IMG/VR virus record: IMGVR_UViG_3300048121_000547
Coordinates: 1 to 56,049 of that record
DNA length: 56,049 bases
Origin: a virus
Strand: one strand, 5' to 3'
This document shows positions 31,042-46,691 of this stretch, piece after piece. How positions within the stretch are numbered: the stretch's first letter is position 1; each line of letters begins with the position of its first letter. The position numbers were made by a program, and so were the translations under genes. The notes under the pieces were generated by a model that did no database searches, had not been told where the DNA came from, and was given only the letters and a program-made list of their open reading frames with translations.

Positions 31042-31079
31042 GGCCGTAAAAGGGTCTTTAACAACGAAAGAGAGAAAAC

Positions 31080-32431: not shown

Positions 32432-32479
32432 GTTTTACTAGGGGGCTGCTACGGCAGTCCCCACCGCAAGGACATCACC

Positions 32480-34018: not shown

Positions 34019-34212
34019 GTAAGAACGTCTTTAAAGAAATGCGTAACGCCGAAATCGTTCACATGATCGATCAAAGGCACATGACAAAAACAGCAGTGGC
34101 TAAATGGTTCAACATTAGCAAGCAGCGCGTCTGGCAGATTTACCAAAGGGAGAAAGAGAATGTTCAGGATATTCGGCCCACCGGGGACGGGGAAGACAAC
34201 TCGACTTCTTAA
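34015..34212 (+). CDS. Small helix-turn-helix protein
   Basis: A 65-residue protein starting at TTG 34015, six bases after GGGAG and overlapping the primase stop codon (TTGA). Residues about 12-45 form a helix-turn-helix: IVHMIDQRHMTKTAVAKWFN and ISKQRVWQIYQREKEN. Its 3' end overlaps the following helicase gene by 53 bases. It may be a transcription regulator of the phage, or a DNA-binding helper of the helicase operon. Confidence 0.65.
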   Translation: MSKNVFKEMRNAEIVHMIDQRHMTKTAVAKWFNISKQRVWQIYQREKENVQDIRPTGDGEDNSTS

Positions 34213-35680: not shown

Positions 35681-36006
35681 AACGCGACGAAGTATTAAAC
35701 ACAGCAAAAGAGCTTATCAACGGCCAACGCGCCAAAGATTACGGGGATGCTTACAACAATCATGCTCGAATTGCAGATGGATGGAACATTATAATAAGCG
35801 GAGCTTTAAAAAGCCACGGTTATCTGACCCCGGCCCACGTTACGTTGATGATGGATTGGGTTAAAACAAGCCGTCTGATAGAAACGATAGGCCATGAGGA
35901 TTCGTGGGTGGATAAAGCCGGATACACCGGGCTGGGAGCGGAATTTGTCGAGAGAGACGCGCTACCTGTAGACAAAATTATAAAGAGAATAAAAGATGAA
36001 GCTTAA
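35677..36006 (+). CDS. DUF6378-like protein
   Basis: This 109-residue protein has RAKDYGDAYNNHARIADGWN and the characteristic HVTLMMDWVKTSRLIETIGHED-type helix with HEDSWVDKAGYTGLG. The combination matches my recollection of DUF6378, short phage proteins next to replication genes with unknown function. Conserved His, Asp and Glu residues could bind metal, as in HD- or MazG-like helical nucleotide hydrolases. It overlaps both neighbours (ATGA before, 11 bases after). Confidence 0.7.
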   Translation: MKRDEVLNTAKELINGQRAKDYGDAYNNHARIADGWNIIISGALKSHGYLTPAHVTLMMDWVKTSRLIETIGHEDSWVDKAGYTGLGAEFVERDALPVDKIIKRIKDEA

Positions 36007-37888
36007 AATGGCTACACCATCCCTGAATTCAGAGTGGGTTCCACCCGCAGAACTGCCCGATCTTACAGATGCAAAGACAATTGCTATCGATGTTGAGACC
36101 AGAGACCCAAATATCAAGAAAAACGGCCCCGGTTGGGCTGTGGGTGACGGTGAAGTGGTCGGATATGCCGTCGCAACAGCCGATTGGGCGGGTTATATCC
36201 CTACAAGACACCGCGGCGGAGGTAATTTAGACGAAAAAATCGTCAATAAATGGCTCAAAAAGGTTTTTGAGTGCCCCGCAGACAAAGTTATGCACAACGC
36301 TCAGTATGATGTGGGCTGGATCAAGCGCATGGGCTTCGAAATTAACGGTCGGATCATCGATACAATGGTTGTCGCGTCCCTTTTGGACGAAAATAAGTTT
36401 TCCTATGCACTAAACTCACTAGCTTTCGAGTTTCTAGGTCTTGCAAAGAACGAAAGCCTGCTCAGAGAGGCCGCAAAAGAATTTGGGTTCGATCCAAAGG
36501 CCGATATGTGGAAAATGCCCGCCATGTACGTCGGACCGTATGCCCAAACAGACGCCGAAGTGACCTTACAGCTATGGGATTATCTAAGAGTTGAGGTCGG
36601 AAAGCAAAATCTTTGGAATATTGTCAATCTAGAGTTGGATTTGCTCCCCTGCTTGGTCAATATGACATGGAGAGGCGTCCGCGTTGACATGGACAAGACA
36701 GAAAGAACACGCGACGCGATCCTCAAGCGAGAAAAGACCGTATTAAAAGAAATAAGGGGACTTGTTGGTAATGATGTGGAAATATGGGCGGCAAACTCTG
36801 TGGCGAAAGCCTTTGATAAGTTATCAATACCATATCCAAAGACAGAAAAGGGCGCTCCATCGTTTAAAAAGCAGTTTCTGGCCGAACATCCGGAAAAATT
36901 ACCGCAATTAATCGTTCAAGCCCGAAATCTTAACAAGACCAGCGGAACTTTTATAAATAACATCCTAAAATTCTGTCACGGCGACGGTCGAGTGCATTCG
37001 CACATCAATCAGATCAGAGGGGACGACGGCGGCACGGTCTCTGGCCGCTTTTCGATGAATAACCCCAACCTACAACAAATCCCGGCCCGCGATCCTGAAA
37101 TCGGGCCCCTTATTCGGTCATTGTTCTTGCCAGAAGAGGGCGAACAGTGGGCGTCAATCGATTACTCGCAACAAGAACCGCGCATCTTGGTTCATTATGC
37201 TCATGTATATGGCAAAAGCCGGGGGATCGCGCTCCGCGGGGTTGAAGAGTTTGTTGAGAGCTACAAAAACGATCCAAACATGGATTTTCACACAATGGTC
37301 GCTGAAATGGCAGACATCCCTCGAAAACAGGCCAAAACAATCAATCTGGGCATGATGTATGGCATGGGGGTCGCCAAACTGGCGGACCAGCTAGACATTG
37401 AAGCCAGCGAAGCCAAAGGTCTGGTGAAACAGTACCATGACCGTGTGCCATTCGTAAAAGCGTTGATGAACGGGGTTACAGAGCGCCTGAACAGCAAAGC
37501 CAGTGGCGGCGCAATAAGCTCTATCCTCGGACGCAAGTGCCGTTTTAATCTCTGGGAACCCGATTCGTTCGAAATGACCAAGGCGCTGCCATACCAAGAG
37601 GCTGTCTTGGAATATGGGGACACTTGCCGTCTCAAGCGGGCGTTTACCTACAAAGCTTTGAACAGGCTAATCCAAGCGTCTGCCGCGGATATGACAAAGA
37701 AAGCGATGGTCGATCTGTACAAAGAAGGTCATCTGCCGATGCTACAAGTGCATGACGAGCTTTGTATGTCTGTAAAGACAAAAGAAGAGGCTGAAGGTAT
37801 TGCAAAGATAATGATAAATGCAGTACCATTAGAAATCCCTAGCAAATGTGATGTTGAAGTGGGTCCAAACTGGGGAGAAGCTGTTTAG
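35996..37888 (+). CDS. polA: Family A DNA polymerase with 3'-5' exonuclease domain
   Basis: This 630-residue replicative polymerase has exonuclease motifs IAIDVETRDP (Asp32, Glu34), MHNAQYDVGW and YAQTDAEV. Polymerase motif A is ASIDYSQQEPRIL (Asp389), motif B RKQAKTINLGMMYGMG (Arg443, Lys447, Leu451, Tyr455) and motif C LQVHDELCM (Asp587, Glu588). Leu451 is at the position of E. coli Phe762. No DnaJ-like insert is present. It is last in the replication operon, before a terminator. A second in-frame ATG at 36008 is possible but has a poorer ribosome site. Confidence 0.92.
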   Translation: MKLKMATPSLNSEWVPPAELPDLTDAKTIAIDVETRDPNIKKNGPGWAVGDGEVVGYAVATADWAGYIPTRHRGGGNLDEKIVNKWLKKVFECPADKVMHNAQYDVGWIKRMGFEINGRIIDTMVVASLLDENKFSYALNSLAFEFLGLAKNESLLREAAKEFGFDPKADMWKMPAMYVGPYAQTDAEVTLQLWDYLRVEVGKQNLWNIVNLELDLLPCLVNMTWRGVRVDMDKTERTRDAILKREKTVLKEIRGLVGNDVEIWAANSVAKAFDKLSIPYPKTEKGAPSFKKQFLAEHPEKLPQLIVQARNLNKTSGTFINNILKFCHGDGRVHSHINQIRGDDGGTVSGRFSMNNPNLQQIPARDPEIGPLIRSLFLPEEGEQWASIDYSQQEPRILVHYAHVYGKSRGIALRGVEEFVESYKNDPNMDFHTMVAEMADIPRKQAKTINLGMMYGMGVAKLADQLDIEASEAKGLVKQYHDRVPFVKALMNGVTERLNSKASGGAISSILGRKCRFNLWEPDSFEMTKALPYQEAVLEYGDTCRLKRAFTYKALNRLIQASAADMTKKAMVDLYKEGHLPMLQVHDELCMSVKTKEEAEGIAKIMINAVPLEIPSKCDVEVGPNWGEAV

Positions 37889-37931
37889 AGGCTTGGCGTA
37901 CTGCTCGATATACGCCCACCACTTCCAACTG

Positions 37932-37963
37932 CCCTCCTGCCTTAAACGGCAAGAGGGTTTTTT
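37932..37963 (+). terminator. Terminator after DNA polymerase
   Basis: CCCTC-C-TGCC (37932-37940) pairs with GGCA-A-GAGGG (37948-37957) around TTAAAC, followed by TTTTTT. It ends the replication operon. Confidence 0.85.
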
Positions 37964-37978
37964 ATTTATATAAACATA

Positions 37979-38007
37979 TTTACAGCGCAAGTTATCTGGT
38001 GTATTTG
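37979..38007 (+). promoter_or_regulatory. Possible promoter of the gene at 38037
   Basis: TTTACA (37979-37984), a 17-base spacer and TATTTG (38002-38007). The -10 is weak, but a new transcript is expected here because a terminator precedes and the gene starts 30 bases downstream. Confidence 0.4.
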
Positions 38008-38036
38008 TTAAACCCTATAACCAGAAAGGAAATAAA

Positions 38037-38312
38037 ATGGGCAACTCTTTAAGAGCCGTTATCGTTATTGATTTTGAAGCAAACACCTTCGAAGATGCAA
38101 GCGCACTTGACACGGCGATACGGAAAAAAGCAAAAACCCTTTGTGATGAGCTAGTCGATCCATCCAACACTTCTAAAGATGACTTATGTATTGTAGATCA
38201 TAAAGCTGGCGTTCTTCTTTCAGAAAGACGAGGACCAACGGGTTCAATTCACAAAATTGTTTTTAGAGGCACAAGGGGTAAAAATAAACCAAAATTGCCG
38301 GATTGGTTATAG
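38037..38312 (+). CDS. Small hypothetical protein
   Basis: This 91-residue protein begins MGNSLRAVIVIDFEANTFED with a beta-strand, a helix with TAIRKKAKTLCDELVDPS and a basic C-terminus (IVFRGTRGKNKPKLPDWL). It has a good AGAAAGGAAA ribosome site. It is the first gene after the polymerase terminator and lies in the region of small regulatory genes. No family is recognised. Confidence 0.65.
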   Translation: MGNSLRAVIVIDFEANTFEDASALDTAIRKKAKTLCDELVDPSNTSKDDLCIVDHKAGVLLSERRGPTGSIHKIVFRGTRGKNKPKLPDWL

Positions 38313-38326
38313 TAAAAAGGTTTTTC

Positions 38327-38355
38327 TTGCAGGTTCCCATAAACTCCTATATGGT
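38327..38355 (+). promoter_or_regulatory. Promoter of RHH gene with CCCATA site
   Basis: TTGCAG (38327-38332), 17 bases, TATGGT (38350-38355). CCATA (38337-38341) and TATGG (38350-38354) form an inverted repeat that spans the spacer and the -10, so it could be an operator for autoregulation. Confidence 0.5.
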
Positions 38356-38382
38356 CGGCCGTGAAGCGACGAGGATTGCCTT

Positions 38383-38559
38383 ATGGATACTACAAAATGG
38401 AAAAGTGTTCTTGTACCAATTGAGGTTTACAAGGAAATTAAACTGGATTCCGCGGCCAACGGGCGTACAATAAGTGGACAGCTTAGAGTTATGTTCGATG
38501 TATATGCTAAAAACCGCGATAAGAACGTTGACACATCCCATAAAGTCGCGTATAAATGA
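38383..38559 (+). CDS. Ribbon-helix-helix-type regulator
   Basis: A 58-residue protein from ATG 38383 to TGA 38557. It has the Arc/MetJ-like layout: a strand (WKSVLVPIEV), helix 1 (YKEIKLDSAANG), a turn (RTISG) and helix 2 (QLRVMFDVYAKN). Such proteins bind DNA as dimers through the paired strand. It is alone between a promoter with a CCCATA palindrome and a strong terminator, which fits an autoregulated repressor of the neighbouring CCCATA promoters. Confidence 0.65.
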   Translation: MDTTKWKSVLVPIEVYKEIKLDSAANGRTISGQLRVMFDVYAKNRDKNVDTSHKVAYK

Positions 38560-38590
38560 CTTAGACATTCTCCAATGTTTGATAAATGTT

Positions 38591-38632
38591 AAAACCCTCA
38601 GTTCATGTCCTGACTGAGGGTTTTTTCTTTTC
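38591..38632 (+). terminator. Terminator after RHH gene
   Basis: CCCTCAGT (38595-38602) pairs perfectly with ACTGAGGG (38613-38620). Flanking AAAA and TTTTTT extend the stem. The T-rich run TTTTTTCTTTTC follows. Confidence 0.9.
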
Positions 38633-38644
38633 TAGAAATAAAGG

Positions 38645-38673
38645 TTGACTTTATCCCATATCATTTTTATTCT
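38645..38673 (+). promoter_or_regulatory. Promoter with TTGACTTTATCCCATAT element
   Basis: TTGACT (38645-38650), a 17-base spacer holding CCCATA (38655-38660), and TATTCT (38668-38673). The same TTGACTTTnTCCCATAT string occurs at 41567. A GGAGAATG leader follows. Confidence 0.7.
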
Positions 38674-38699
38674 CTAATTAGTAAAACAGGAGAATGTTA

Positions 38700-39089
38700 A
38701 TGGGACTTGATATGTTTCTAATGGGTGAGAAATTCATCCCCACGCATGACAATAAACACACGCGGCCTACCGTCGATGGATACAAAGTGTCCAGCACAAT
38801 TCTCGATTTGGGACAGTGGCGCAAGCATTGGGCTCTGCATGAGTGCATCGAACAAGATTACGTTAAGTCTGGCGGGCGCATTTTGCTAGAGCCGGAGTTC
38901 CTGCTTGAAATTGCTGACGCAGTTAAGCAAGGTAATTTGCCCGAAGCAAACTATTCACCCCAAACAGACGCCTTTCACAAAGAACCGAAAGAGGTTGCAA
39001 AGACCGTAAAGATTTTTCGCGATGCTTACGATTGGGTCAACCGAGAAGACGGCTTTTGGCGCAGCGTTTATTATGAAGGAAGCTGGTAA
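38700..39089 (+). CDS. MGLDMFL-type phage protein of unknown function
   Basis: The start is ATG 38700, seven bases after GGAGAA; an in-frame ATG two codons earlier is too close to the site. The 129-residue protein begins MGLDMFLMGEKFI and has WRKHWALHECIEQDY, GGRILLEPEFLLEIADAV and a final DAYDWVNREDGFWRSVYYEG. Proteins with the MGLDM-Y/F-L start are common in phages and are often mislabelled as phosphoglycerate kinases. Their function is unknown. Confidence 0.75.
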   Translation: MGLDMFLMGEKFIPTHDNKHTRPTVDGYKVSSTILDLGQWRKHWALHECIEQDYVKSGGRILLEPEFLLEIADAVKQGNLPEANYSPQTDAFHKEPKEVAKTVKIFRDAYDWVNREDGFWRSVYYEGSW

Positions 39090-39274
39090 TGACCCTCGTC
39101 GTAACACACTGCCCCGAATGCAAAGTAAAAATGCAAGCCGTAGATAGTAGAGAGCACACGGCCTACGGCTTTCCAACCGTGCGCCGCCGCCGTGCATGTA
39201 TGAAATGCTCTTTCAGAATAACAACAATAGAGCTGCCTATCGATTTAGGTAACTCCATTTTTGAGGAAGAATAA
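39089..39274 (+). CDS. NrdR-like zinc-ribbon protein
   Basis: This 61-residue protein has CPEC (Cys8, Cys11), AVDSREH, a VRRRRAC run, CMKC (Cys37, Cys40) and FRITTIEL. That order is the zinc-ribbon of the ribonucleotide reductase repressor NrdR (CPxC..DSR..RRRR..C..CxxRFTTxE). NrdR's ATP-cone domain is absent. It overlaps both neighbours by one base. It may bind DNA at NrdR-like sites or act as a small transcription factor; the phage has no reductase gene of its own. Confidence 0.65.
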   Translation: MTLVVTHCPECKVKMQAVDSREHTAYGFPTVRRRRACMKCSFRITTIELPIDLGNSIFEEE

Positions 39275-40362
39275 TGAGCGACATCACAAAAGTCACAGGC
39301 ATTAAAGGCGCTACCGTTGCAGAGCAAATTAACTTGCAAAACTCCATGCGGCCTCATCCTCAGATGAGCGGTCGGGGGCACGGTAGGCTTGGAAAGCGCC
39401 ACTTTCCGATCAAAGAAGGTAAAAAGATAAAGAAGCTAAAGTCCGCCCCTAAAAAAGCAGACTTTCGATACATGGTGCAGGATGTTGTCCGGCAGTGTCG
39501 AAGCGCCCCGGAAAAAGATGTCTTTGGTATCGAAAATAATACGTTGGGCACAGGTTTAAAATTCGGGTGGAGCTCATATGACTTCGCGCAGTCTTTAGTG
39601 TCTCAATATCAATACTTTGATTGCAGCCTGCTGTGTTCCTACATTCGAAGCAACTTAGACGAAATGTTTCCATTGTTTGAAACGCCGCCAACTCAGGATG
39701 TAATTTTACCATCTACAGAAGTCGGGCTGTACTTTAAAGACATCAATGACTTTGAAGCCGACGAATTCCATGTCTACAAATGGACAGAAGAATTTGACGA
39801 AAAAGAAGTAATGTTTCTGTGTAATATGATTGCTCCAGACAACCCTCGGAAATTCTATGTCGTGCTTTTAGAACGATACTCGGAGAACGCTAATTTTCTT
39901 GGAACGGTGGACAGCGAAAAAGGTGAAATCCAGTTAGCTCCACTTTGGATGGATCAAGACCATAAAATAGTAACGTATGAAACGTTTTTGAGAATTGTTT
40001 GTGCAGCGTTGGACACACTAAACCAACCGCGGCTCGTGGTTCAAAAGCCCATGCCGTTAAACTTTCTTCAAAAGCAGGGCTTTCGTAAATCGACAGGGTC
40101 TTTCGCTCCAGAAGCGTGGAACATGGTTTCTTGGAACGTAGAAGAACCCGTCGTAGCGCGGACATATGACGAGGGAAGAGGTGGGCGGCAAGCCCTTCAC
40201 TTTCGCCGAGGCCACTGGAGAAAAGCTGAAGAGCATCACAAGAACGCTCAATGGAGCGAAAAACGAAACCGTTGGGAAAAGTGGATAGCAGGCTACACCG
40301 CCGGAGACACCGCTTTCGGCGTGAAAAAGAATTACCATTTACCAAGAAAGGAAGACACATGA
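39274..40362 (+). CDS. Hypothetical protein with C-terminal HFRRGHWR motif
   Basis: This 362-residue protein has a basic N-terminal 60 residues (GKRHFPIKEGKKIKKLKSAP), a mixed middle domain (about 90-280) and a compact C-terminal motif, LHFRRGHWRKAEEHHKNAQW then GYTAGDTAFGVKKNYHL. The closing motif, with His, Arg and Trp residues, occurs on unrelated phage and plasmid proteins, but I cannot name it. It is the longest gene in the accessory region and is coupled to genes on both sides. Confidence 0.65.
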   Translation: MSDITKVTGIKGATVAEQINLQNSMRPHPQMSGRGHGRLGKRHFPIKEGKKIKKLKSAPKKADFRYMVQDVVRQCRSAPEKDVFGIENNTLGTGLKFGWSSYDFAQSLVSQYQYFDCSLLCSYIRSNLDEMFPLFETPPTQDVILPSTEVGLYFKDINDFEADEFHVYKWTEEFDEKEVMFLCNMIAPDNPRKFYVVLLERYSENANFLGTVDSEKGEIQLAPLWMDQDHKIVTYETFLRIVCAALDTLNQPRLVVQKPMPLNFLQKQGFRKSTGSFAPEAWNMVSWNVEEPVVARTYDEGRGGRQALHFRRGHWRKAEEHHKNAQWSEKRNRWEKWIAGYTAGDTAFGVKKNYHLPRKEDT

Positions 40363-40565
40363 TCGATGACAGAGTGTGTATTTACTATATGATAGACCGT
40401 ATCGAAGGAATTAAATCCGACGATGGACTGATAGACCTGAGAGACGAATTGCTTCGGAACCTCGGCGTCAATGCTAGACATAAACACAAAAATCCCGACG
40501 CGCTGGTCGCGGACCTCCCGCCTATAAAACCAGCCAAAAAAGGAAGACCTCGTAAAAATGGATAA
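40359..40565 (+). CDS. Small protein with AT-hook-like tail
   Basis: The start is ATG 40359, overlapping the previous stop (ATGA), giving 68 residues. The N-terminal half is helical (VCIYYMIDRIEGIKSDDGLI), and the C-terminus is PAKKGRPRKNG, whose GRPRK core resembles an AT hook that binds the minor groove of AT-rich DNA. It overlaps the next tiny gene. A DNA-binding accessory role is possible. Confidence 0.6.
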   Translation: MIDDRVCIYYMIDRIEGIKSDDGLIDLRDELLRNLGVNARHKHKNPDALVADLPPIKPAKKGRPRKNG

Positions 40566-40653
40566 AATCGAACTGGCCGGATTAGTAGGCTTTATTGTAG
40601 GTTTAACGGTGGGAGCCGTACTCTCAGGAATAATTATAGGAGTGCTATTATGA
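40558..40653 (+). CDS. 31-residue single-pass membrane peptide
   Basis: A short frame from ATG 40558 to TGA 40651: MDKIELAG then a glycine-rich hydrophobic helix (LVGFIVGLTVGAVLSGIIIG) to the end. It overlaps both neighbours, which supports real translation. The repeated Gly spacing suggests helix packing in the inner membrane. It could modulate host membrane functions or lysis timing. Such a short gene cannot be certain. Confidence 0.5.
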   Translation: MDKIELAGLVGFIVGLTVGAVLSGIIIGVLL

Positions 40654-40814
40654 GTAGAGAAGACATGGATTATGCTTTAGATCAGGCCTTTAAAGCGGTG
40701 TTCGGCAAAATGCCGCCAAGCGGAACAGAACTGCGCCGCCAAGAAATAGAAAAAAGAGTGCTGGCTAAAAAAGAAATATCTTTCGAAGACATGAACTTTA
40801 TATTTGAAGGATAA
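40650..40814 (+). CDS. Small acidic/helical protein
   Basis: A 54-residue protein from ATG 40650 (overlapping the previous stop) to TAA 40812. It is helical and charged (MSREDMDYALDQAFKAVFGK, then RRQEIEKRVLAKKEISFED). An ATTATAGGAG ribosome site lies inside the upstream gene. Its stop is five bases before the structured RNA candidate at 40819. No family is recognised. Confidence 0.55.
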   Translation: MSREDMDYALDQAFKAVFGKMPPSGTELRRQEIEKRVLAKKEISFEDMNFIFEG

Positions 40815-40818
40815 AAAT

Positions 40819-40899
40819 GAGGCCAGCTTGATCGGAAAGTGGCGCTTTCTGGTAGTGCTCAACCAACAAACAACAGTGGTTAAAATTACAGCTGGCCTC
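40819..40899 (+). ncRNA. Three-way-junction RNA element candidate
   Basis: GAGGCCAGCT (40819-40828) pairs perfectly with AGCTGGCCTC (40890-40899). Inside, GAAAG pairs with CTTTC around TGGCG (hairpin 1); GTAGT pairs with ATTAC, directly abutting the outer stem, and within that AACCA pairs with TGGTT around ACAAACAACAG (hairpin 2). The result is an 81-base junction fold. It lacks a U-tract and has no open frame, so neither a terminator nor a gene explains it. Confidence 0.55.
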
Positions 40900-40936
40900 T
40901 AAAATAACTTAAATCAAAAACAAAAGGTGCGCAACG

Positions 40937-41125
40937 ATGTTAGACTTAGAAAAGACCGTGAAAGACATTTTAGAAGTCTGCCCGCCAGACCTGTCCGGTC
41001 CAGACATCGCAGTCATAATAGCCAATATCGTATCCGCATATAATTCCGAAAGAATATGGCCCCTCGTGTCAGAAATGGCTGGGGCCTTTCTATATGAAGA
41101 AATCGACAAACAAAAAATGCACTGA
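40937..41125 (+). CDS. Small helical protein
   Basis: A 62-residue, mostly helical protein (MLDLEKTVKDILEVCPPDLS, then PDIAVIIANIVSAYNSERIW). The AAAGGTG ribosome site lies in the leader after the structured RNA, so that RNA could control this gene and those after it. The function is unknown. Confidence 0.6.
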   Translation: MLDLEKTVKDILEVCPPDLSGPDIAVIIANIVSAYNSERIWPLVSEMAGAFLYEEIDKQKMH

Positions 41126-41136
41126 GGGAAAGCAAC

Positions 41137-41340
41137 ATGGATGACGATAAACTAAACTCGTTCCAACAAAACGAACTGAAATGGCTCAGACGCCAAGTCG
41201 ATAGACTGCAAGACGAAAAATATAAAACCGATAACGAGCAATATACCCGACGACTGAATATCGAACGAGAGCTATGGTCCGCTAAAGAAGAACTAAGCAC
41301 CTTCGTCAAAAATCTACGAAAAGCCGGAAAACAAATATGA
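41137..41340 (+). CDS. Small coiled-coil protein
   Basis: A 67-residue protein that is charged and helical throughout, with heptad-like spacing (WLRRQVDRLQDEKYKTDNEQ, then RLNIERELWSAKEELSTFVK). Its stop overlaps the next start (ATGA). It probably oligomerises. Nothing indicates a particular partner. Confidence 0.6.
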   Translation: MDDDKLNSFQQNELKWLRRQVDRLQDEKYKTDNEQYTRRLNIERELWSAKEELSTFVKNLRKAGKQI

Positions 41341-41570
41341 TACTCGACATATCTCTACATGCCCTCGCAAAAATGACCTTCGAAGAAGCACTGAAAACCA
41401 CGCGATATGGAGACACAATAATATACCATGTCGGATCATACGCAGGCGGTAAACATAAATTCGCGGCCCTCCAAGCTGCAAGAAATGGCCTCGTCTCGCT
41501 GGTGCAAAAACGTAAAGGAAAAGGCCTGTTCGAGTACACAGCACAACGAACTAAAAAAAGGGTAAGTTGA
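41337..41570 (+). CDS. Small basic protein
   Basis: This 77-residue protein has a helix with ISLHALAKMTFEEALKTTRY, a strand with DTIIYHVGSYAGGKHKFAAL and a basic C-terminal helix (LVSLVQKRKGKGLFEY, QRTKKRVS). It overlaps the upstream gene by four bases. The 3' end overlaps the -35 box of the following promoter. The function is unknown. Confidence 0.6.
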   Translation: MILDISLHALAKMTFEEALKTTRYGDTIIYHVGSYAGGKHKFAALQAARNGLVSLVQKRKGKGLFEYTAQRTKKRVS

Positions 41571-41595
41571 CTTTCTCCCATATTTGTGTTAAGAT
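41567..41595 (+). promoter_or_regulatory. Promoter with TTGACTTTCTCCCATAT element
   Basis: TTGACT (41567-41572), a 17-base spacer with CCCATA (41577-41582), and TAAGAT (41590-41595). The -35 and left spacer are the same as at 38645. Confidence 0.75.
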
Positions 41596-41651
41596 GGTTT
41601 TGAGGGTTAGGACAACTCTCAAACGCTTTTTGACAATTTGGAGAATGTACT

Positions 41652-41882
41652 ATGAAGTATAAAGCTATGGTAAACCCAATGGGGGGAACTTGCTGGGCAA
41701 TCGCTAAAACCAAAGGCGAAGCCATGAGGATGCTGAAAGGTGAACTCAAAAGAAGCTGGTCACACCTGTTCGATATCAAAGGATGGCTTAAATCAGGAGA
41801 AGCAACCTGCGATATATACGAGGATGCCGGAACCGATAGCCATAACGATGATAAATACATCGAAACAGTCCCGTTGATATAA
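41652..41882 (+). CDS. Small protein behind a GGAGAATG leader
   Basis: A 76-residue protein (MKYKAMVNPMGGTCWAIAKT, GELKRSWSHLFDIKGWLKSG, then an acidic end). It is preceded by TTTGGAGAATGTACT, the leader shared by several accessory genes, and by a strong promoter with a CCCATA site. Its stop overlaps the start of the next tiny gene (TAATG). The family is unknown. Confidence 0.65.
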   Translation: MKYKAMVNPMGGTCWAIAKTKGEAMRMLKGELKRSWSHLFDIKGWLKSGEATCDIYEDAGTDSHNDDKYIETVPLI

Positions 41883-41977
41883 TGTACGGCCAAACACTAA
41901 GAGAATACGTTATGGCTATGCACCAGTTCGATATCGTCTGGATGCCTAAACATAAAGATCAAGAACCACCGTTCTGA
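41882..41977 (+). CDS. 31-residue peptide coupled to upstream gene
   Basis: A frame from ATG 41882 to TGA 41975 (MYGQTLREYVMAMHQFDIVW to KDQEPPF). The TAATG overlap with the previous gene allows translational coupling, and a terminator follows within four bases. Both favour a real, very small gene. No function can be given. Confidence 0.45.
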   Translation: MYGQTLREYVMAMHQFDIVWMPKHKDQEPPF

Positions 41978-41980
41978 AAA

Positions 41981-42010
41981 TAAGGCCCTGCGCTAAATGC
42001 GTGGGGCCTT
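41981..42010 (+). terminator. Terminator after the 41.6-42.0 kb operon
   Basis: AAGGCCC (41981-41987) pairs with GGGCCTT (42003-42009), with an inner CGC/GCG pair. The T-run is short (TTTGGTTTGG), so it may be weak. Confidence 0.65.
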
Positions 42011-42346
42011 TGGTTTGGGGAGCATGGATCGAAGAGCGGGGATCGCGGGCCGCGGAACTTAAATTACGCGGTTATAGTATATAGGCCAGAAAAAAAAAAA
42101 AAAAAAAAAACTGTTTTCAAGCCGTAACCACCGTAACTTATGTAACTTGGCATTTAACAGTATATATATAAAGAATAAATTTGGTTACATAAGTGGTTAC
42201 ACAGAGAAAGTACAAATATGTAACCAGAAAGATCGATATTGCGTTAAGGGGGGCGGGGGAAATTTTTTATAAAAAGTTTTTTCTGGCCTATATAACTGTA
42301 GCGGTTATATAAGGGATTTATCTGATAGTTAATTAATGAGGATAGC
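42011..42346. other. Non-coding block before terS: candidate origin or control region
   Basis: No gene is seen in these 336 bases. TATATAGGCCAGAAAAAA (42078-42095) and its exact complement (42277-42294) form an 18-bp inverted repeat. Between them lie a run of 21 A (42090-42110), six GTAAC/GTTAC copies (42124-42224), an alternating TATATATATA stretch (42161-42170) and a G-rich stretch (42245-42259). The right arm leads into CTGGCCTATATAACTGTAGC, a possible promoter for terS. Origin, operator or packaging functions are all possible. Confidence 0.5.
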
Positions 42347-42988
42347 ATGACCAAAGCGAAACGAGGTCGCCCTGTTAAGAAAACCAAATATGGAAGCATC
42401 CCTTCCCCACTTTTGATAAAAGAGCGCGCAGTGCCAAAACATAACAAACTGGTCGATCCTGACAGTCCCCGCAGTGACCCCCGGGGTCAGAAGAGAATGA
42501 CGGTTGATAAACGCCTGACCCGAAAGCAAGAGCTTTTTGTAAAAGAGCTTGTAAGCAATGACGGCCTGATAACTTTCAAAGAGGCTGCAATCCGCGCGGG
42601 CTATCCAGAAACATCCGCTCATACCCGAGCCTATGAATTGACCAACCCACATAAGTGTCCACATGTAGTCGCAGCTATCAAAGCTTACCGGGCCGAGCTC
42701 GACGCTAAGTTTGACATAAACTATGGCCGTCATATTAGAGACCTTCAGAAAATTCGCGATCTGGCTTTGGAAAACGGTGCTTACTCTGCCGCTGTTCAAG
42801 CTGAGTATCGGAGGGGTCAAGCCCAAGGCGACATCTATGTGAGCAAGTCAGAGATACGCCACGGCAGTATCGACAGCATGAGCAAAGAGGAAGTTCTGAA
42901 AGCGTTGAATGAATTGAAGGGCGGATATGACGAAGACGTTATCGATATTACCCCAACAGAAGATGACCAACGAAGCGGGCCTGTATAG
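42347..42988 (+). CDS. terS: Terminase small subunit
   Basis: This 213-residue protein has a basic N-terminal tail (MTKAKRGRPVKKTKYG) and then the Terminase_2-type region: LTRKQELFVKELVSND, FKEAAIRAGYPETSAHTRAY, CPHVVAAIKAYRAELDAKF. This DNA-recognition helix-turn-helix plus oligomerisation segment picks viral DNA for packaging. The C-terminus is acidic (DEDVIDITPTEDD). It lies 4.3 kb before terL instead of next to it. A GAGGATAGC ribosome site precedes the ATG. Confidence 0.8.
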   Translation: MTKAKRGRPVKKTKYGSIPSPLLIKERAVPKHNKLVDPDSPRSDPRGQKRMTVDKRLTRKQELFVKELVSNDGLITFKEAAIRAGYPETSAHTRAYELTNPHKCPHVVAAIKAYRAELDAKFDINYGRHIRDLQKIRDLALENGAYSAAVQAEYRRGQAQGDIYVSKSEIRHGSIDSMSKEEVLKALNELKGGYDEDVIDITPTEDDQRSGPV

Positions 42989-43364
42989 GCAGTTTAAGAC
43001 CGCTAACAAATCGCGTCGCAATTGGACACTGACTCGGATAGAGAACTGGGTCGGCCAAGGAATCCCGGATCTTCTGGCCTGTGATGAGAACGGTGGATTG
43101 CACTTTGTAGAGTTAAAGTTTTGTAAGGCTAACGCGGTTAATTTAAGCCCGCATCAAGTTGCGTGGCTCACAAGGCATCAAAAGAGCAGTAGTTGGGTTT
43201 TAATTAAGCAACAGGCCCGAGCAGACGTTAAGCCCACCCTGCACCTTTACAGGGCGTCTCAGGCTATATCCCTTGCAGAGGATGGTTTGAAAACTTCCGC
43301 AGCTGGTACGTTCGAACACCCTTTTGATTGGAACGCTGTTTTTCAGTTGATCTCTCCCATATAA
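42927..43364 (+). CDS. PD-(D/E)XK nuclease (VRR-NUC/Hjc-like)
   Basis: This 145-residue protein has the catalytic layout GQGIPDLLACDENGGLHF (Asp48), VELKF (Glu62, Lys64) and SPHQVAWL (Gln77), the PD-(D/E)XK fold of small phage nucleases and Holliday-junction resolvases. A second in-frame ATG at 42963 (MTNEAGLYRQF) would shorten the overlap with terS from 62 to 26 bases and may be the true start. It could trim replication intermediates before packaging. Confidence 0.7.
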   Translation: MTKTLSILPQQKMTNEAGLYRQFKTANKSRRNWTLTRIENWVGQGIPDLLACDENGGLHFVELKFCKANAVNLSPHQVAWLTRHQKSSSWVLIKQQARADVKPTLHLYRASQAISLAEDGLKTSAAGTFEHPFDWNAVFQLISPI

Positions 43365-43375
43365 TCCCATATGCT
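43347..43375 (+). promoter_or_regulatory. Promoter with two CCCATAT sites and a palindrome
   Basis: TTGATC (43347-43352), 17 bases, TATGCT (43370-43375). CCCATA occurs at 43356-43361 and 43366-43371. CCATAT (43367-43372) and ATATGG (43377-43382) form an inverted repeat over the -10, a likely operator. Confidence 0.65.
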
Positions 43376-43404
43376 TATATGGCGTAAACTAATTGGAGAA
43401 GGTT

Positions 43405-43554
43405 ATGACCGATAAGAAAGAACAAACCCCTGCCCAAAAAATCCGCCACCAGTTGAGCGTGTTTCAAATGATGATGCTGGCTGGCCGTGATGAGGCGGCG
43501 ATAAAATGTTTAAAAAACCTGTATCAAATAGCCGATGATTTGGAGGCCGCGTGA
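43405..43554 (+). CDS. 49-residue helical protein
   Basis: From ATG 43405 to TGA 43552, preceded by AATTGGAGAAGGTT, a variant of the shared leader. The sequence is helical (AQKIRHQLSVFQMMMLAGRD, then AAIKCLKNLYQIADDLEAA). Its stop overlaps the next start (TGATG). It was called from promoter, leader and coupling rather than family knowledge. Confidence 0.55.
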   Translation: MTDKKEQTPAQKIRHQLSVFQMMMLAGRDEAAIKCLKNLYQIADDLEAA

Positions 43555-43760
43555 TGAACATAACTTGCAGCAGAAAACTAAGCTTGGATGAAATAGAAGA
43601 ACTGGCGGGCATTGCAAAATTAATGGATCGGCAAAATTTAATAAAAGATTGGACCGGGGATGGTATGCTGTACAAAACCACTGGCGGTAACTTTCATTTT
43701 ATAGATCAGGATAAATTGCACGTTAACGGGAAAGGGGGCCGCAAAAATGTTTCTGTTTAG
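43554..43760 (+). CDS. Small protein coupled to upstream gene
   Basis: A 68-residue protein from ATG 43554 (a GTG one codon earlier is possible). It has a helical first half (SLDEIEELAGIAKLMDRQNL) and a Gly/Lys-rich end (HVNGKGGRKNVSV). It overlaps both neighbours. The function is unknown. Confidence 0.55.
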   Translation: MNITCSRKLSLDEIEELAGIAKLMDRQNLIKDWTGDGMLYKTTGGNFHFIDQDKLHVNGKGGRKNVSV

Positions 43761-43845
43761 TTTTCTGGGGCGGCTAATCTATGGCAAGGATTATGACAAG
43801 CTAAGTCGCAGGGCCAGCAAACCCCGGCGCAAAAGGCGGCGATAA
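43747..43845 (+). CDS. 32-residue hydrophobic-then-basic peptide
   Basis: ATG 43747 to TAA 43843, overlapping the previous gene by 14 bases. A hydrophobic start (MFLFSFLGRLIYG) precedes a strongly basic tail (SRRASKPRRKRRR). It could associate with membranes or nucleic acid. The next base region holds AAACTTTCTAAAGTTTTT, a possible weak terminator. Confidence 0.45.
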   Translation: MFLFSFLGRLIYGKDYDKLSRRASKPRRKRRR

Positions 43846-43859
43846 ACTTTCTAAAGTTT

Positions 43860-43887
43860 TTGCTTGCAGTCTATGCGACAATATGCG
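43860..43887 (+). promoter_or_regulatory. Promoter of the DUF932 cassette
   Basis: TTGCTT (43860-43865), 16 bases, TATGCG (43882-43887), followed by AGAAA. The promoter at 45119 has the same TATGCGAGAAA end and a TTGTTT -35. Confidence 0.55.
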
Positions 43888-43893
43888 AGAAAG

Positions 43894-43917
43894 AGGGCGG
43901 GGCTATCCTGCCCTTTT
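43894..43917 (+). promoter_or_regulatory. Leader hairpin, possible attenuator
   Basis: AGGGCGGG (43894-43901) pairs with CCTGCCCT (43907-43914) and TTTT follows. It lies between the promoter and the GGAGAATG leader of the DUF932 gene, so it could end transcription early. Confidence 0.45.
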
Positions 43918-43937
43918 ACTTTTGGAGAATGTAAAAC

Positions 43938-45068
43938 ATGACACATAATATTGAAAACAGCAAAAACACCCTGACCGCACTTATGATGAAAGTGCAGGAC
44001 CAAGCCGCAAGATCGGCGGATTATCTGGCCCCAACAAACGATTTGCAAAAAACCACCACTTTGGATGGCAAACCCCAGATTGTTATTGAGGCCAACCGGG
44101 GTGTGCCGACAAAACGTTTTGACATAAACGATACAGCCTTTGGTCAAATCGCTACACATGCCGGGATCGACACCCGTACAGCCCGCCGTTTGCAGTCTAA
44201 TTATCCCCGGGAATTCGACAATTTGACCAACGCTATCTGGCAAAAAGAACCGACCCGCCGCATGATCCGCACCCATGCCGATGATCGGTTTGATACTGAC
44301 GGCACTGCGCGGGCTTTTGTTTCTGACAAATTCAAAACTTTTGATAACGTCAATTTGCTTGAAGCCTGCCTTCCCCAGCTGATCGATAACCCGGCACAGT
44401 TTCAAGTTGTGTCCGCCGATGTTTCAGAAAAGCGGATGTACCTACGTTTAAAATCTTTGGAGCAATTGGGCACTGGTGCTAATGTCGGCGACCACATGGC
44501 AAACGGGATTGGTTTTGGCAATTCCGAAGTCGGCGCGGGATCAGTTACTGTTTATCAAATCGCTTGGACGCTGGCTTGCTTGAACGGGATGCAAACCCAA
44601 AACAAAACCCGGTCAAGCCACATCACATCCGCCCGCGATGGCGACGATTGGGGCCTTTTGTCCGATGATGCAAAAAATGCGGACAATCGGGCTTTGGAAT
44701 TGAAGCTGCGCGATTTGGTTGGGCACTATTCAAGCCGCGAAACTTTTGACGATATATGCCAGCAAATGCGCGCCGCAGCTGCGGATGTGATCGAAGGCGA
44801 GGCCACCGATGTGACCGACGTTGTCAACAATCTGGGCCGCGTCATGCAGCTGACCAAAAAAGAAAACAGCGACGTTCTAAATGGCTTGATGGCAACAATC
44901 GGTCAGGCTGGCTATGAAAACAGCCGCCCGCTTTCCCGTGCAACACTTGTGAACGCCGTGACCGCGGTATCACACCGTGCCGATATTGATGATGTTGACA
45001 CATGGCAGCAACGCGGCGGGCAGCTGCTCAATATGTCCGCCCGCGATTGGCAGCGCGTCGCCGCCTAA
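43938..45068 (+). CDS. DUF932-family phage/plasmid-like protein
   Basis: This 376-residue protein matches the DUF932 type: KPQIVIEANRGVPTKRFDIN, FGQIATHAGIDTRTARRLQS, then YLRLKSLEQLGTGANVGDHM, GIGFGNSEVGAGSVTVYQIA, LACLNGMQTQNKTRSSHITS, with a helical C-terminal third. The family occurs on plasmids and phages and its biochemical role is unsettled. It is the first of three GC-rich cassettes with own promoter and terminator, and its codon use differs from neighbouring phage genes. Confidence 0.75.
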   Translation: MTHNIENSKNTLTALMMKVQDQAARSADYLAPTNDLQKTTTLDGKPQIVIEANRGVPTKRFDINDTAFGQIATHAGIDTRTARRLQSNYPREFDNLTNAIWQKEPTRRMIRTHADDRFDTDGTARAFVSDKFKTFDNVNLLEACLPQLIDNPAQFQVVSADVSEKRMYLRLKSLEQLGTGANVGDHMANGIGFGNSEVGAGSVTVYQIAWTLACLNGMQTQNKTRSSHITSARDGDDWGLLSDDAKNADNRALELKLRDLVGHYSSRETFDDICQQMRAAAADVIEGEATDVTDVVNNLGRVMQLTKKENSDVLNGLMATIGQAGYENSRPLSRATLVNAVTAVSHRADIDDVDTWQQRGGQLLNMSARDWQRVAA

Positions 45069-45093
45069 TCCCTGCAATATATACCGCCCAACT

Positions 45094-45120
45094 GGCCCGC
45101 CTTAGAGCGGGCCTTTTTTT
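45094..45120 (+). terminator. Terminator of the DUF932 cassette
   Basis: GGCCCGC (45094-45100) pairs with GCGGGCC (45107-45113), then seven T. Nearly the same hairpin ends the next two cassettes. Confidence 0.9.
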
Positions 45121-45146
45121 GTTTGATCTTTATAAATTTATATGCG
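45119..45146 (+). promoter_or_regulatory. Promoter of the second cassette, touching the terminator
   Basis: TTGTTT (45119-45124) begins in the T-run of the preceding terminator; after 16 bases comes TATGCG (45141-45146) with AGAA following. A leader hairpin CGGGCGG-CTA-CCGTCCG follows. Confidence 0.5.
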
Positions 45147-45203
45147 AGAAATCTTATATCGGGCGGCTACCGTCCGACAACTTTACATTTTGGAGAATGT
45201 ACC

Positions 45204-45632
45204 ATGACACACCCAATCGAAAATATGCCTATTACACGCGGCAACTTTGTTGATGCTTTGGTGGTTGATAAAGACCAAGCGCAGGCGGATTTGGCCGCTG
45301 CTCAAAAAGCGGCAATGGACCTTATCGCAGAACGTGATCGGTTGCAGGCTGAACTGGCCGACGCTAATCGTTTTAAAGAGGGCTTTGCTAATTTGTTTGC
45401 CGATCAAATCGACGCCGCTGTAAAATCCGCCATGGTCGATTATGAAAGCGATTTTGATATTAGCGTCTATGAAAGCGAAATTCAGGAAATGGCCCGCGAT
45501 GGTTTTGATGCCAGCGACCACAGCGACGATATAGCCGACGCGGTTGGCTTTGATATGTACGATTACAAGTCTGAGGTGGCCGACATTGTTAGCGATATTT
45601 TGCGCGACGCTACGGTTAAATTGGAGGTTTAA
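45204..45632 (+). CDS. Acidic coiled-coil protein of second cassette
   Basis: The start is ATG 45204, after TTTTGGAGAATGTACC. The 142-residue protein has a coiled-coil-like middle (DQAQADLAAAQKAAMDLIAE, RDRLQAELADANRF) and a very acidic second half (YESDFDISVYESEIQEMARD, then SDHSDDIADAVGFDMYDY). Its first codons (MTHPIEN) mirror MTHNIEN of the DUF932 protein, as do the leaders. The acidic character might mimic DNA or bind a basic partner, but that is speculation. Confidence 0.65.
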   Translation: MTHPIENMPITRGNFVDALVVDKDQAQADLAAAQKAAMDLIAERDRLQAELADANRFKEGFANLFADQIDAAVKSAMVDYESDFDISVYESEIQEMARDGFDASDHSDDIADAVGFDMYDYKSEVADIVSDILRDATVKLEV

Positions 45633-45634
45633 AG

Positions 45635-45829
45635 ATGCGGCTTACTAAACCACAGGCCCAAACCTTGCACCGCAAGTGGATCGACGGCCAGCACGAGCAC
45701 GGTAGCACCCGCGACATTTCTTTTCTGGCCTTTCGTCGGACTGTTGAGCCGACATACGATGAGAGCGTCATGGTCAAATGGTGCGGAATGTATATTGGGA
45801 TTGAAGCGGACGGCTACCCCCACAGCTAA
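45635..45829 (+). CDS. Small protein, second gene of the cassette
   Basis: This 64-residue protein starts two bases after the previous stop with a GGAGG ribosome site upstream. It is basic at the front (MRLTKPQAQTLHRKWIDGQH) with LAFRRTVEPTYDESVMVKWC and GMYIGIEADGYPHS at the end. Its start and terminator position show it is co-transcribed with the acidic protein. Not recognised. Confidence 0.65.
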   Translation: MRLTKPQAQTLHRKWIDGQHEHGSTRDISFLAFRRTVEPTYDESVMVKWCGMYIGIEADGYPHS

Positions 45830-45850
45830 AAACTTCTAAAAATTAAGATT

Positions 45851-45880
45851 GGCCCGCCCTATTGATTGGCGGGCCTTTTT
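45851..45880 (+). terminator. Terminator of second cassette
   Basis: GGCCCGCC (45851-45858) pairs perfectly with GGCGGGCC (45868-45875), then TTTTT. The nine-base loop contains most of the -35 box of the next promoter. Confidence 0.9.
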
Positions 45881-45891
45881 CGTTTTATAAT
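45862..45891 (+). promoter_or_regulatory. Promoter of third cassette inside the terminator
   Basis: TTGATT (45862-45867) lies in the terminator loop; after 18 bases comes a consensus TATAAT (45886-45891). TATGGG (45891-45896), the reverse of CCCATA, overlaps its end. Confidence 0.6.
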
Positions 45892-45923
45892 ATGGGATAA
45901 ACCGCATATATTGGAGAATGCAA

Positions 45924-46640
45924 ATGTTAAAGACTGTTGAAACAAGCCGCGCCCAAAAGACCAAAGGTCTGGCCGTAACCTATCGCGCCGGGTCGCAAGA
46001 GAAATTCGGCACTTGCCCGGCCAGCTGCGAATTAAACCCGTCTGGCTGTGGCGCGTCAAAGGTCGATCTGGACTATTTAAACGCGCTTTCGGATGCCGTC
46101 CCAACTAAGGGGATCGCCTTTACCTATTCCCACTTTGCGCCGATCCATTGGTTCAAGAAAAACGGGCCGGGTAAAACTGTCATAAATTACTCGTGCAAAA
46201 CTATTGCCCAAGCCGCGATTTATGTCAGCCGCAAAACCCGCGCCCTAAATGTTCCCGTTGTGGTTACTGTCGCGCTTGATTTTTGGAGCGGCCGCAAAAC
46301 TGTTGATAGTGACGGCGCGCGGTTCGTTAGATGCCCGGCCGAATATCTGCCCAAGTTTGGTTGCGCCCAATGCGGCAATGGCGACCCACTTTGCGCCCGC
46401 TTAGACCGCGATTATGTAATTGGATTTACAGCGCACGGGATCCACAAAAAGAAAGCCGCCAATCCTGACGACCCCGGCGGATGCTATGCCAGCAGCGGCC
46501 ATGTGGTCCTGCATTGGGAAGCCACGGCCGATCAAGCGCAGGATGAGAGGGACGCGGACAAGGTGACCCGGTTTGCTAAAAGCTTAGCCCCCCGCACGAT
46601 ATTGCGCCACCATATCGCCGGGGATATTGGCGACGATTAA
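45924..46640 (+). CDS. Cysteine-rich phage protein (DUF7227-like)
   Basis: The start is ATG 45924, seven bases after GGAG in the shared leader; ATG 45918 is part of the leader. The 238-residue protein has two cysteine clusters, FGTCPASCELNPSGCGASK and GCAQCGNGDPLCARLDRDYV, with VINYSCKTIAQAAIYVSRKT between. Then VIGFTAHGIHKKKA follows. It resembles a family of phage proteins I know as DUF7227, with no proven role. The cysteines suggest a metal or Fe-S site. Confidence 0.65.
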   Translation: MLKTVETSRAQKTKGLAVTYRAGSQEKFGTCPASCELNPSGCGASKVDLDYLNALSDAVPTKGIAFTYSHFAPIHWFKKNGPGKTVINYSCKTIAQAAIYVSRKTRALNVPVVVTVALDFWSGRKTVDSDGARFVRCPAEYLPKFGCAQCGNGDPLCARLDRDYVIGFTAHGIHKKKAANPDDPGGCYASSGHVVLHWEATADQAQDERDADKVTRFAKSLAPRTILRHHIAGDIGDD

Positions 46641-46668
46641 AACCGCGACCCCATCAATTGACGATCTG

Positions 46669-46691
46669 GCCCGCCATTGTGCGGGCTTTTT
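46669..46691 (+). terminator. Terminator of third cassette
   Basis: GCCCGC (46669-46674) pairs with GCGGGC (46681-46686), then TTTTT. It is the same type as at 45094 and 45851. Confidence 0.85.

Follow-up and report, generated by a model that had tools for sequence, protein, structure and literature searches.

A predicted ribbon-helix-helix repressor and an overlapping candidate anti-Shine-Dalgarno small RNA may control the same dispersed operons in marine phages

Few small RNAs (sRNAs) are known from phages, and most of them have one mRNA or the host as their target. The 68/69-nt sar RNA of phage P22 pairs with ant mRNA and blocks translation initiation, and trans-acting sRNAs encoded by phages include PreS of lambda, whose target is host dnaN, and VpdS of phage VP882, which works via Hfq on host and phage RNA (review PMC12197685). 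Among ribbon-helix-helix (RHH) proteins, dimers of Omega (ParB) from plasmid pSM19035 bind short non-palindromic repeats that lie, direct or inverted, over several promoters including its own, with low affinity for one repeat and high affinity for two (PMC9499535).

The window analyzed here is the whole 56,049-nt stretch of IMG/VR record IMGVR_UViG_3300048121_000547 (positions 1-56,049). Its locus resembles P22 immI, where a small RHH repressor (Arc) and a phage RNA (sar) occupy one region. Unlike in immI, the predicted sRNA overlaps the RHH gene and has a promoter with an RHH-type operator, the operators take the form of directly repeated decamers, and changes of the seed between clades are matched by changes of the leaders. 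While sar has one target, ant, and is encoded antisense on the strand opposite to it, the sRNA described here has about 6 dispersed predicted targets and shares its strand with them and with the RHH gene. Unlike the targets of PreS and VpdS, they are predicted to be a leader common to the phage's own operons. The likeness to Omega is in the repeats, direct or inverted, which overlap several promoters including the regulator's own, binding being predicted in our case; Omega sites are a 7-bp WATCACW in runs of 7-10, whereas here TCNYATA recurs with a 10-bp period, usually in 2-3 units.

The initial annotation had drawn attention to CCCATA inside several promoters. The motif does lie at 38327, 38645, 41567, and 43347 within sigma70-like hexamers separated by a 17-bp spacer (CCCATA on the plus strand at 38336, 38655, 41577, 43356, and 43366), and the reverse TATGGG reported for the 45862 promoter is present at 45891. 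The string said to be shared by two promoters, TTGACTTTNTCCCATAT, has exactly 2 genomic copies, one at 38645 and one at 41567; these two promoters have 17 letters in common. As had been cautioned, the hexamer alone is common by chance, and it is no more than slightly enriched, with 29 occurrences versus 19.6 expected, a count that 3 of 100 shuffles reach; 6 of the 29 are intergenic, in a window where intergenic DNA makes up 4.6% (binomial p 0.002). CCCATA alone was too weak and was dropped as the motif unit in favor of TCNYATA, of which it is one form, together with helical phasing. TCNYATA gives a much stronger signal, 17 of its 48 occurrences in the window being intergenic (p 2e-11). A half-site matrix trained on other phages only, with the window left out, places 11 of 13 hits scoring at least 12 in intergenic DNA (p 1.5e-13), and it recovers the five promoters first named as well as those of TerL, the DUF932-like gene, the SNF2 helicase, and the gene at 45204.

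The decisive evidence comes from spacing. TCNYATA is arranged in tandem at exactly 10, 20, or 30 bp and back-to-back at 11 or 21 bp. Same-strand spacings of 10 (53 pairs), 20 (28), and 30 (5) stand against a mean of 0.8 elsewhere, and 14 opposite-strand pairs occur at spacing 11; refinement of the half-site drew on this phage group too, but involved no selection for spacing. These peaks are absent from the reversed sequence used as a control. The window itself holds 6 helically phased pairs versus 0.10 in shuffles, and none at non-phased spacings within 8-33 bp. The inverted repeat proposed previously, which covers the -10 of the 38327 promoter, was rejected as the operator; relatives do not keep it, the window's TATGGT being mostly TATGCT, TATGAT, or TATACT there, and they retain TCCCATAAACTCCTATAT instead. 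Judged by conservation, the unit kept is a direct decamer repeat. Half-sites are kept upstream of orthologous genes at 63-75% protein identity. Equal motif density in non-promoter DNA and a lack of conservation in relatives had been named beforehand as refuting outcomes, and neither occurred. The coordinates first given were too narrow because operator-type sites extend over 31006-47232, with a lone site at 1480. Promoters and predicted operators are as follows.

1480-1486, plus strand: single half-site in the gap that follows the capsid gene (matrix score 13.4 alone)
31006-31022, minus strand: tandem operators before the SNF2-like helicase gene (29542 to ~31000), the sole minus-strand gene; kept in G008 and G009
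38327-38355, plus strand: RHH gene promoter TTGCAG-17-TATGGT with tandem half-sites TCCCATA (38335-38341) and TCCTATA (38345-38351); kept upstream of relatives' RHH genes
38528-38556, plus strand: promoter TTGACA-17-TATAAA within the RHH gene 3' end, operator TCCCATA at 38536-38542; invariant in relatives with SHKVAYK
38645-38673, plus strand: promoter of gene 38700-39089, operator TCCCATA at 38654-38660 (matrix, hexamers)
41567-41595, plus strand: promoter of gene 41652-41882, operator TCCCATA at 41576-41582 (matrix, hexamers)
43347-43375, plus strand: promoter of gene 43405-43554, tandem operators at 43355-43361 and 43365-43371 (matrix, phasing, hexamers)
43872-43888, minus strand: tandem operators in the promoter that serves the DUF932-like gene 43938-45068, TATGCGACAATATGCGA on the plus strand (matrix; kept in relatives)
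45141-45158, no strand assigned: back-to-back operator pair TATGCGA-N4-TCTTATA of gene 45204-45632 (matrix, phasing)
45891-45897, minus strand: single operator, TATGGGA on the plus strand, of gene 45918/45924-46640 (DUF7227); top matrix score, 18.2, and kept upstream of orthologues
47206-47232, plus strand: operators TCCTATA and TCCCATA at a 20-bp spacing, upstream of the TerL gene (47251-48714) (matrix, phasing)

The initial annotation attributed these sites to a dedicated regulator of accessory genes. Accessory promoters do carry them, but TerL and other core genes belong to the predicted regulon too. The proposal of a dedicated regulator is supported by linkage to the RHH gene, by the sites in that gene's own promoter, and by the lack of phased sites in RHH-less relatives; the best candidate is the following protein.

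38383-38559, plus strand: 58-aa RHH protein, the proposed regulator (Pfam, PDB profile, AlphaFold, Foldseek)

Of 16 family members, 14 match Pfam RHH_5, at best with E 1.5e-6, while the window protein by itself gives a weak match below the Pfam cut-off (E 0.012). A family profile searched against the PDB matches Arc (E 0.001) and also AvtR. The AlphaFold monomer (pLDDT 77.5) has two helices, residues 13-26 and 30-45, and residues 1-12 are not assigned a strand, and the top Foldseek matches, MatP, Arc, CdbA, and CopG, are weak (best E 0.24). There are 520 relatives in IMG/VR. Across clades RHH gene promoters carry the tandem site, which is the best conserved site of all.

A second operator-bearing promoter, of sigma70 type, is embedded in the final codons of the RHH gene and is followed by an intrinsic terminator with no ORF in between. 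Neither the decamer repeat nor this putatively co-regulated sRNA, encoded at the regulator gene's 3' end, figured in the initial annotation.

38564-38626, plus strand: predicted sRNA of ~63 nt, with 5' GACATTCTCCAATGT (anti-Shine-Dalgarno CUCC), linker, and intrinsic terminator

An operator promoter in or directly after the RHH gene, together with a terminator, is conserved in relatives. The TTGAC promoter, its operator, and the 17-bp spacer are preserved at synonymous positions of the RHH gene, and codon identity is 0.97 over codons 49-54 versus 0.60 over codons 1-46. Across 17 sequences compared, ACATTCTCCA(A)ATGT is nearly invariant and the linker drifts. The predicted fold has a z of -4.4; the 5' hairpin of the window-type sRNA is short and differs from the predicted minimum-energy structure. 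No Rfam family matched at gathering score in the window. The sRNAs of different clades have a common architecture and not a common sequence.

Six window genes have Shine-Dalgarno leaders to which the 5' end of the predicted sRNA is complementary.

38689-38697, plus strand: leader GGAGAATGT, gene 38700-39089
41638-41648, plus strand: leader TTGGAGAATGT, gene 41652-41882
43392-43400, plus strand: leader ATTGGAGAA, gene 43405-43554
43922-43932, plus strand: leader TTGGAGAATGT, DUF932-like gene 43938-45068
45190-45200, plus strand: leader TTGGAGAATGT, gene 45204-45632
45911-45920, plus strand: leader TTGGAGAATG, DUF7227 gene 45918/45924-46640

When the 73 window leaders are ranked by duplex energy, these six take ranks 1-6, with a mean of -18.1 versus -8.1 for a shuffled sRNA. 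Operator promoters precede all six (hypergeometric p 1e-6). The TerL leader, downstream of the 47206-47232 operators, has no seed match.

A seed complementary to the Shine-Dalgarno sequence will always pair with some leaders, and only its flanking bases discriminate. In other clades the RNA seed and the leaders are altered together. Leaders with at least 9 nt complementary to their own sRNA number 45, compared with 9.9 +/- 3.0 for sRNAs of other types (2,000 draws, maximum 21). The G012 type is represented by one contig with a single match of at least 9 nt, and the contigs L457 and L484, which have a different 3' element and mostly A-rich leader matches, were excluded from this support. Leader matches are few or short in G003, G011, and G012. 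We also scanned 10 genomes, blind to the seed, for an operator promoter followed by a terminator without an ORF. This yielded 8 units, 6 of which have a seed matching their own genome's leaders. The units of G007 (TTATTACGGAG) and G015 (TCAACTACGGGA) lie away from the RHH gene and their seeds still match their own leaders; G004 and G005 yielded no sRNA.

The reading we favor, with a probability of roughly 0.74, is operator repression by the RHH protein combined with a trans-acting anti-Shine-Dalgarno sRNA that would close the same regulon. RHH dimers would bind TCNYATA half-sites on one helix face, repeated directly every 10 bp or inverted at 11 bp, and sit between and over the -35 and -10 hexamers of host sigma70 promoters, shutting off the RHH gene itself, about 10 phage operons, and one small RNA. 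The sRNA would be transcribed from the operator-bearing promoter in the RHH gene 3' end, and its exposed seed would pair with the ribosome-binding leaders of six operons and block their translation. The RHH protein would halt new transcription and the sRNA silence existing mRNA, so that a sharp early-gene pulse would result, after which the RHH protein would end synthesis of itself and of the sRNA. That the RHH protein binds, that the sRNA is transcribed, that both steps repress, and when they act is what we infer from sequence.

The same data could arise if only the RHH operators were real and the RNA were simply where the RHH mRNA ends, terminator included, its seed a generic anti-Shine-Dalgarno. 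GGAG leaders pair with any RNA that contains CUCC, and type A and type B sRNAs partly cross-match each other's leaders. This explanation is nonetheless unlikely given that the seed's flanking bases change with the leaders in several clades, that the sRNA promoter is held at synonymous positions, and that the detached units of G007 and G015 still match their leaders. Either step might instead be positive, the RHH protein activating its promoters or the sRNA opening leaders, since sequence cannot tell the direction of regulation and activators exist among RHH proteins. Sites between or over good -35 and -10 hexamers with 17-bp spacers have the usual placement for repression, however, and the predicted sRNA covers the Shine-Dalgarno sequence itself, which makes a positive role improbable.

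To a proposal that the decamer serves as a promoter element, or as the operator of a host or other phage factor, we give equally little credence. Promoters of marine T4-like contigs carry TCGTATATAATCGTATATAATCGTATA in the absence of a 38383-type RHH gene, so decamers are not exclusive to the RHH system, and their phased TCGTATA promoter arrays hold repeated TATAAT-like words. Against this, sites in both orientations and back-to-back fit a dimeric repressor and not a sigma factor, the RHH gene's own promoter holds the best conserved site, and clade members have the RHH gene and phased sites together, both being missing from HTVC027P, HTVC023P, and DSL-LC04. That the motif reflects chance hexamers or recent promoter duplicates, as the barely enriched CCCATA and the 17 letters common to 38645 and 41567 might suggest, is refuted by the spacing distribution, and the use of both orientations, the different flanks, and conservation at orthologues of 63-75% protein identity leave it next to no probability.

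Phages HTVC027P and HTVC023P infect SAR11 alphaproteobacteria. These Pelagibacter phages have a related terminase (62% and 55%) and a similar gene order, and differ in that an RHH gene match and phased sites are both absent. The four RHH-less relatives (HTVC027P, HTVC023P, DSL-LC04, and 023Pt) together have 1 phased pair in 224 kb; it is in 023Pt, and the other three have zero. Within the clade, the RHH gene lies inside the polA-terS interval in 10 of 10 contigs that span it. G006 was dismissed as an RHH-less exception, its contig being without this interval. No RHH relatives were found among named phages, and the only 2 in bacterial genomes are on MAG contigs labelled Flavobacteriaceae and Maricaulis. 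Both are probably binned viral contigs, and we therefore claim no host.

From these sequence comparisons, a large, little-studied marine phage group appears to control its early genes at two levels. We lean towards a broader reading in which this widespread group has a two-layer switch, one compact locus supplying an RHH repressor and an anti-Shine-Dalgarno sRNA for the same dispersed operons, with seed and leaders rewritten together several times into a lineage-private, possibly mutually incompatible translational code. If true, this would be a clear viral case of mixed transcription-translation shut-off, in which a phage sRNA silences a set of the phage's own operons and is under the same operator as those operons' repressor. 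The repeated co-change of seed and leaders would offer a natural series of specificity shifts in an sRNA with many targets. Hundreds of uncultured marine virus contigs without an annotated regulator contain a conserved protein and non-coding element of this kind, and both would gain a function.

A scan of viral contigs for triple decamers returned mostly TCGTATA arrays of T4-like marine contigs, tandem repeats, and coding repeats; few of these contigs have the RHH family, and the triple pattern alone is therefore no predictor of the system. In a de novo search for enriched noncoding 6-mers, based on a crude gene caller, ATGGGA/TCCCAT emerged only with four genomes pooled, and ATGCGA/TCGCAT emerged in single genomes too.

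The initial annotation proposed a CCCATA operator-like motif in several accessory-gene promoters. All the sites it named are present in the sequence, and the promoters at 38327, 38645, 41567 and 43347 have sigma70-like hexamers and 17-bp spacers with the motif inside the spacer. It also noted that the hexamer alone is common by chance; CCCATA by itself is only slightly enriched. The half-site TCNYATA shows a distinctive spacing across 78 non-redundant contigs (1.06 Mb), with 53 same-strand pairs at 10 bp, 28 at 20 bp and 5 at 30 bp versus a mean of 0.8 at other spacings, and 14 opposite-strand pairs at 11 bp. The same sequences read backwards gave no spacing peaks. The window contains 6 phased pairs, where dinucleotide shuffles predict 0.10, and no unphased pairs within 8-33 bp. 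When the window was scanned with a matrix, intergenic DNA accounted for only 4.6% of its length yet held 11 of the 13 best sites, with the matrix built from other phages only. In the spacer, the single half-sites at 38645 and 41567 stand where paired sites have their first unit. A dimeric repressor that binds cooperatively would be expected to leave this pattern, in which sigma70 promoters carry sites of either orientation on one face of the helix.

Conservation, on which the proposal also depended, is seen in orthologous promoters of relatives. Upstream of the ribbon-helix-helix (RHH) gene, TTGCAG..TCCCATAAACTCCTATAT is kept, containing TCCCATA and then TCCTATA 10 bp on. The DUF932-like gene is preceded by two TATGCGA units 10 bp apart in the opposite orientation, TerL by TCYTATA and TCCCATA 20 bp apart, and the DUF7227 gene by a retained TATGGGA. 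The sole minus-strand gene, encoding the SNF2-like helicase, is served by a separate promoter (29542-31022 for gene and promoter together), whose tandem half-sites at 31006-31022 are kept in two related genomes (G008 and G009).

For the 58-aa RHH protein (ORF 38383-38559), 520 relatives were detected in IMG/VR, and a search of 50,697 phage records found none. Pfam RHH_5 matches 14 of 16 family members (best 1.5e-6), a family profile searched against the PDB found Arc repressor (E 0.001), and the predicted fold has both RHH helices. MatP, Arc, CdbA and CopG are among the closest Foldseek chains, at E-values that are not significant for a protein this short. W6, K7, S8 and V11, presumed to lie in the DNA-contacting strand, do not vary, even among members only about 30% identical elsewhere. 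Highly divergent RHH proteins, about 30% identical, in contigs L226 and L289 and in G005 (L186) retain a DKWKS/TKWKS strand; L226 was reached from the motif side and has no operator promoter before its own RHH gene.

The RHH gene is found in the polA-terS interval of all 10 clade contigs spanning it, and contigs that seemed to be without the gene turned out not to extend over this interval. In 224 kb from four related phages that lack the gene (HTVC027P, HTVC023P, DSL-LC04 and 023Pt), there is one phased pair. From this linkage we infer that the RHH protein binds the phased sites. Promoters of marine T4-like contigs without this RHH family also contain decamers of the TCGTATATAA form, and a similar layout can therefore serve another factor. 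In these contigs (L212, L217, L220, L236, L273 and others, up to 170 kb), a triple decamer, TTGACAAA-TCGTATATAATCGTATATAATCGTATA, stands before a 5'-exonuclease-like gene and several others, and the RHH family of the window is absent.

Position 38536, within the last RHH codons, scores as an operator with the matrix. Relatives whose protein ends in SHKVAYK carry TTGAC-N3-TCCCATAAARTCGCKTAYAARTA at this point, with one exception in the -35, giving a promoter whose spacer is 17 bp. Of the synonymous comparisons, 97% are identical for codons 49-54 versus 60% for codons 1-46, and therefore DNA, not protein alone, appears conserved; the next-best 6-codon window reaches 0.93, which makes the contrast suggestive but not overwhelming. 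About 7 nt past the -10 comes GACATTCTCCAATGT, followed by a linker that drifts and then an intrinsic terminator. These elements define one feature:

38564-38626, about 63 nt, same strand as the RHH gene: predicted sRNA (GACATTCTCCAATGT, linker, terminator)

It has no Rfam match. In other clades, the corresponding operator-bearing promoter is found just past the RHH stop codon and would drive a different RNA of identical layout. Two further RHH contigs (L457 and L484) carry a 3' element of differing conserved structure (GAAATCTAGTTTCCC... GTCTTCTTGCCTGTGGAC).

The 5' segment of the predicted sRNA is complementary to TTGGAGAATGT, a recurrent leader of accessory-region genes. In 56 kb, all 4 occurrences of TTGGAGAATG and 5 of 6 of GGAGAATG are ribosome-binding leaders. 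Ranked by duplex energy among 73 genes, the leaders of 38700, 41652, 43405, 43938, 45204 and 45924 take places 1-6, with a mean of -18.1 kcal/mol versus -8.1 +/- 1.5 (minimum -13.8) for shuffled RNA. Each of the six is the gene that directly follows an operator promoter, and therefore both control layers would fall on the same genes. The RHH, TerL and SNF2 genes have no seed match, though operators are present.

Seeds and leaders differ among clades and change in step with each other.

Seeds of the predicted sRNAs and corresponding leaders, by type
Window type: seed CATTCTCCA, leader TGGAGAATG
G001 type: seed GTTCTCCAA, leader TTGGAGAAC
G003 and G011: seed CTCCGTAG, leader CTACGGAG
G007: seed CTCCGTAATAA, leader TTATTACGGAG
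G015: seed TCCCGTAGTTGA, leader TCAACTACGGGA
G012 (single contig): seed ACCTCATGA, leader TCATGAGGT

A seed-blind scan of 10 genomes looked for units in which an operator promoter leads to a terminator without an intervening ORF. Of the 8 units obtained, 6 match the leaders of their own genome; the G007 and G015 types were found in this way. In 38 non-redundant contigs, 45 leaders have at least 9 contiguous bases complementary to their own sRNA, versus 9.9 +/- 3.0 (maximum 21 in 2,000 draws) after swapping in sRNAs of other types, a test weakest for G003, G011 and G012. The evidence is all comparative and the relatives are mostly fragments; the half-site and the seed types were both derived from these same phages, and circularity is least likely to affect the spacing, the swap test and the seed-blind scan.

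Early in infection, host RNA polymerase would use the operator promoters to produce accessory proteins, RHH and the sRNA. Accumulating RHH would then cover the decamers and shut these promoters, including its own and that of the sRNA, while the sRNA would block the Shine-Dalgarno of mRNA already present, resulting in a brief, sharp pulse of early-gene expression. Repression is suggested by the operator position and a seed covering the Shine-Dalgarno, and early timing solely by the sigma70-like character of the promoters.

P22 Arc is an RHH repressor that limits ant, and Arc/sar is the closest functional precedent for an RHH and sRNA module. The 68/69-nt sar RNA also limits ant (PMC12197685). 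In the window module, the RNA is predicted to act in trans on many targets, and it lies on the same strand as the repressor gene and overlaps it. The omega protein of pSM19035, also RHH, acts on non-palindromic repeats of 7 bp that overlie several promoters (PMC9499535); the DNA side of the window module resembles this, with a period of 10 bp. No paper on such a module was found among open-access literature, and the HTVC023P-type genome paper mentions no sRNA or promoters (PMC9599517).

The 56,049-base IMG/VR record is close to complete, since its two ends (1-140 and 55910-56049) are repeats of each other, about 140 bases long and differing at one position or more; this suggests a complete, circularly permuted or terminally redundant genome. 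Its gene order is capsid, tail, SNF2-like helicase (minus strand), helicase, DNA polymerase A and accessory genes, then small terminase, VRR-like nuclease, DUF932-like gene, DUF7227 gene, large terminase and portal, where the SNF2-like, VRR-like and DUF932-like labels are our reading of the sequences, library matches not being above cut-off. By terminase, the nearest named phages are the Pelagibacter phages HTVC027P (62%), HTVC023P and two others. Intergenic DNA before TerS (42060-42340) holds a run of 20 A residues and an inverted repeat that is long but imperfect, CGCGGTTATAGTATATAGGCCAGAAAA versus TTTTCTGGCCTATATAACTGTAGCGGTTATAT; the right arm of this repeat is kept upstream of TerS in relatives. 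CTGGCC is the top enriched non-coding 6-mer of the window (18 versus 5.7 expected). The 610 bp of non-coding DNA before TerL (46641-47250) contain many CAGCTGGCC words and are a possible packaging or replication site.
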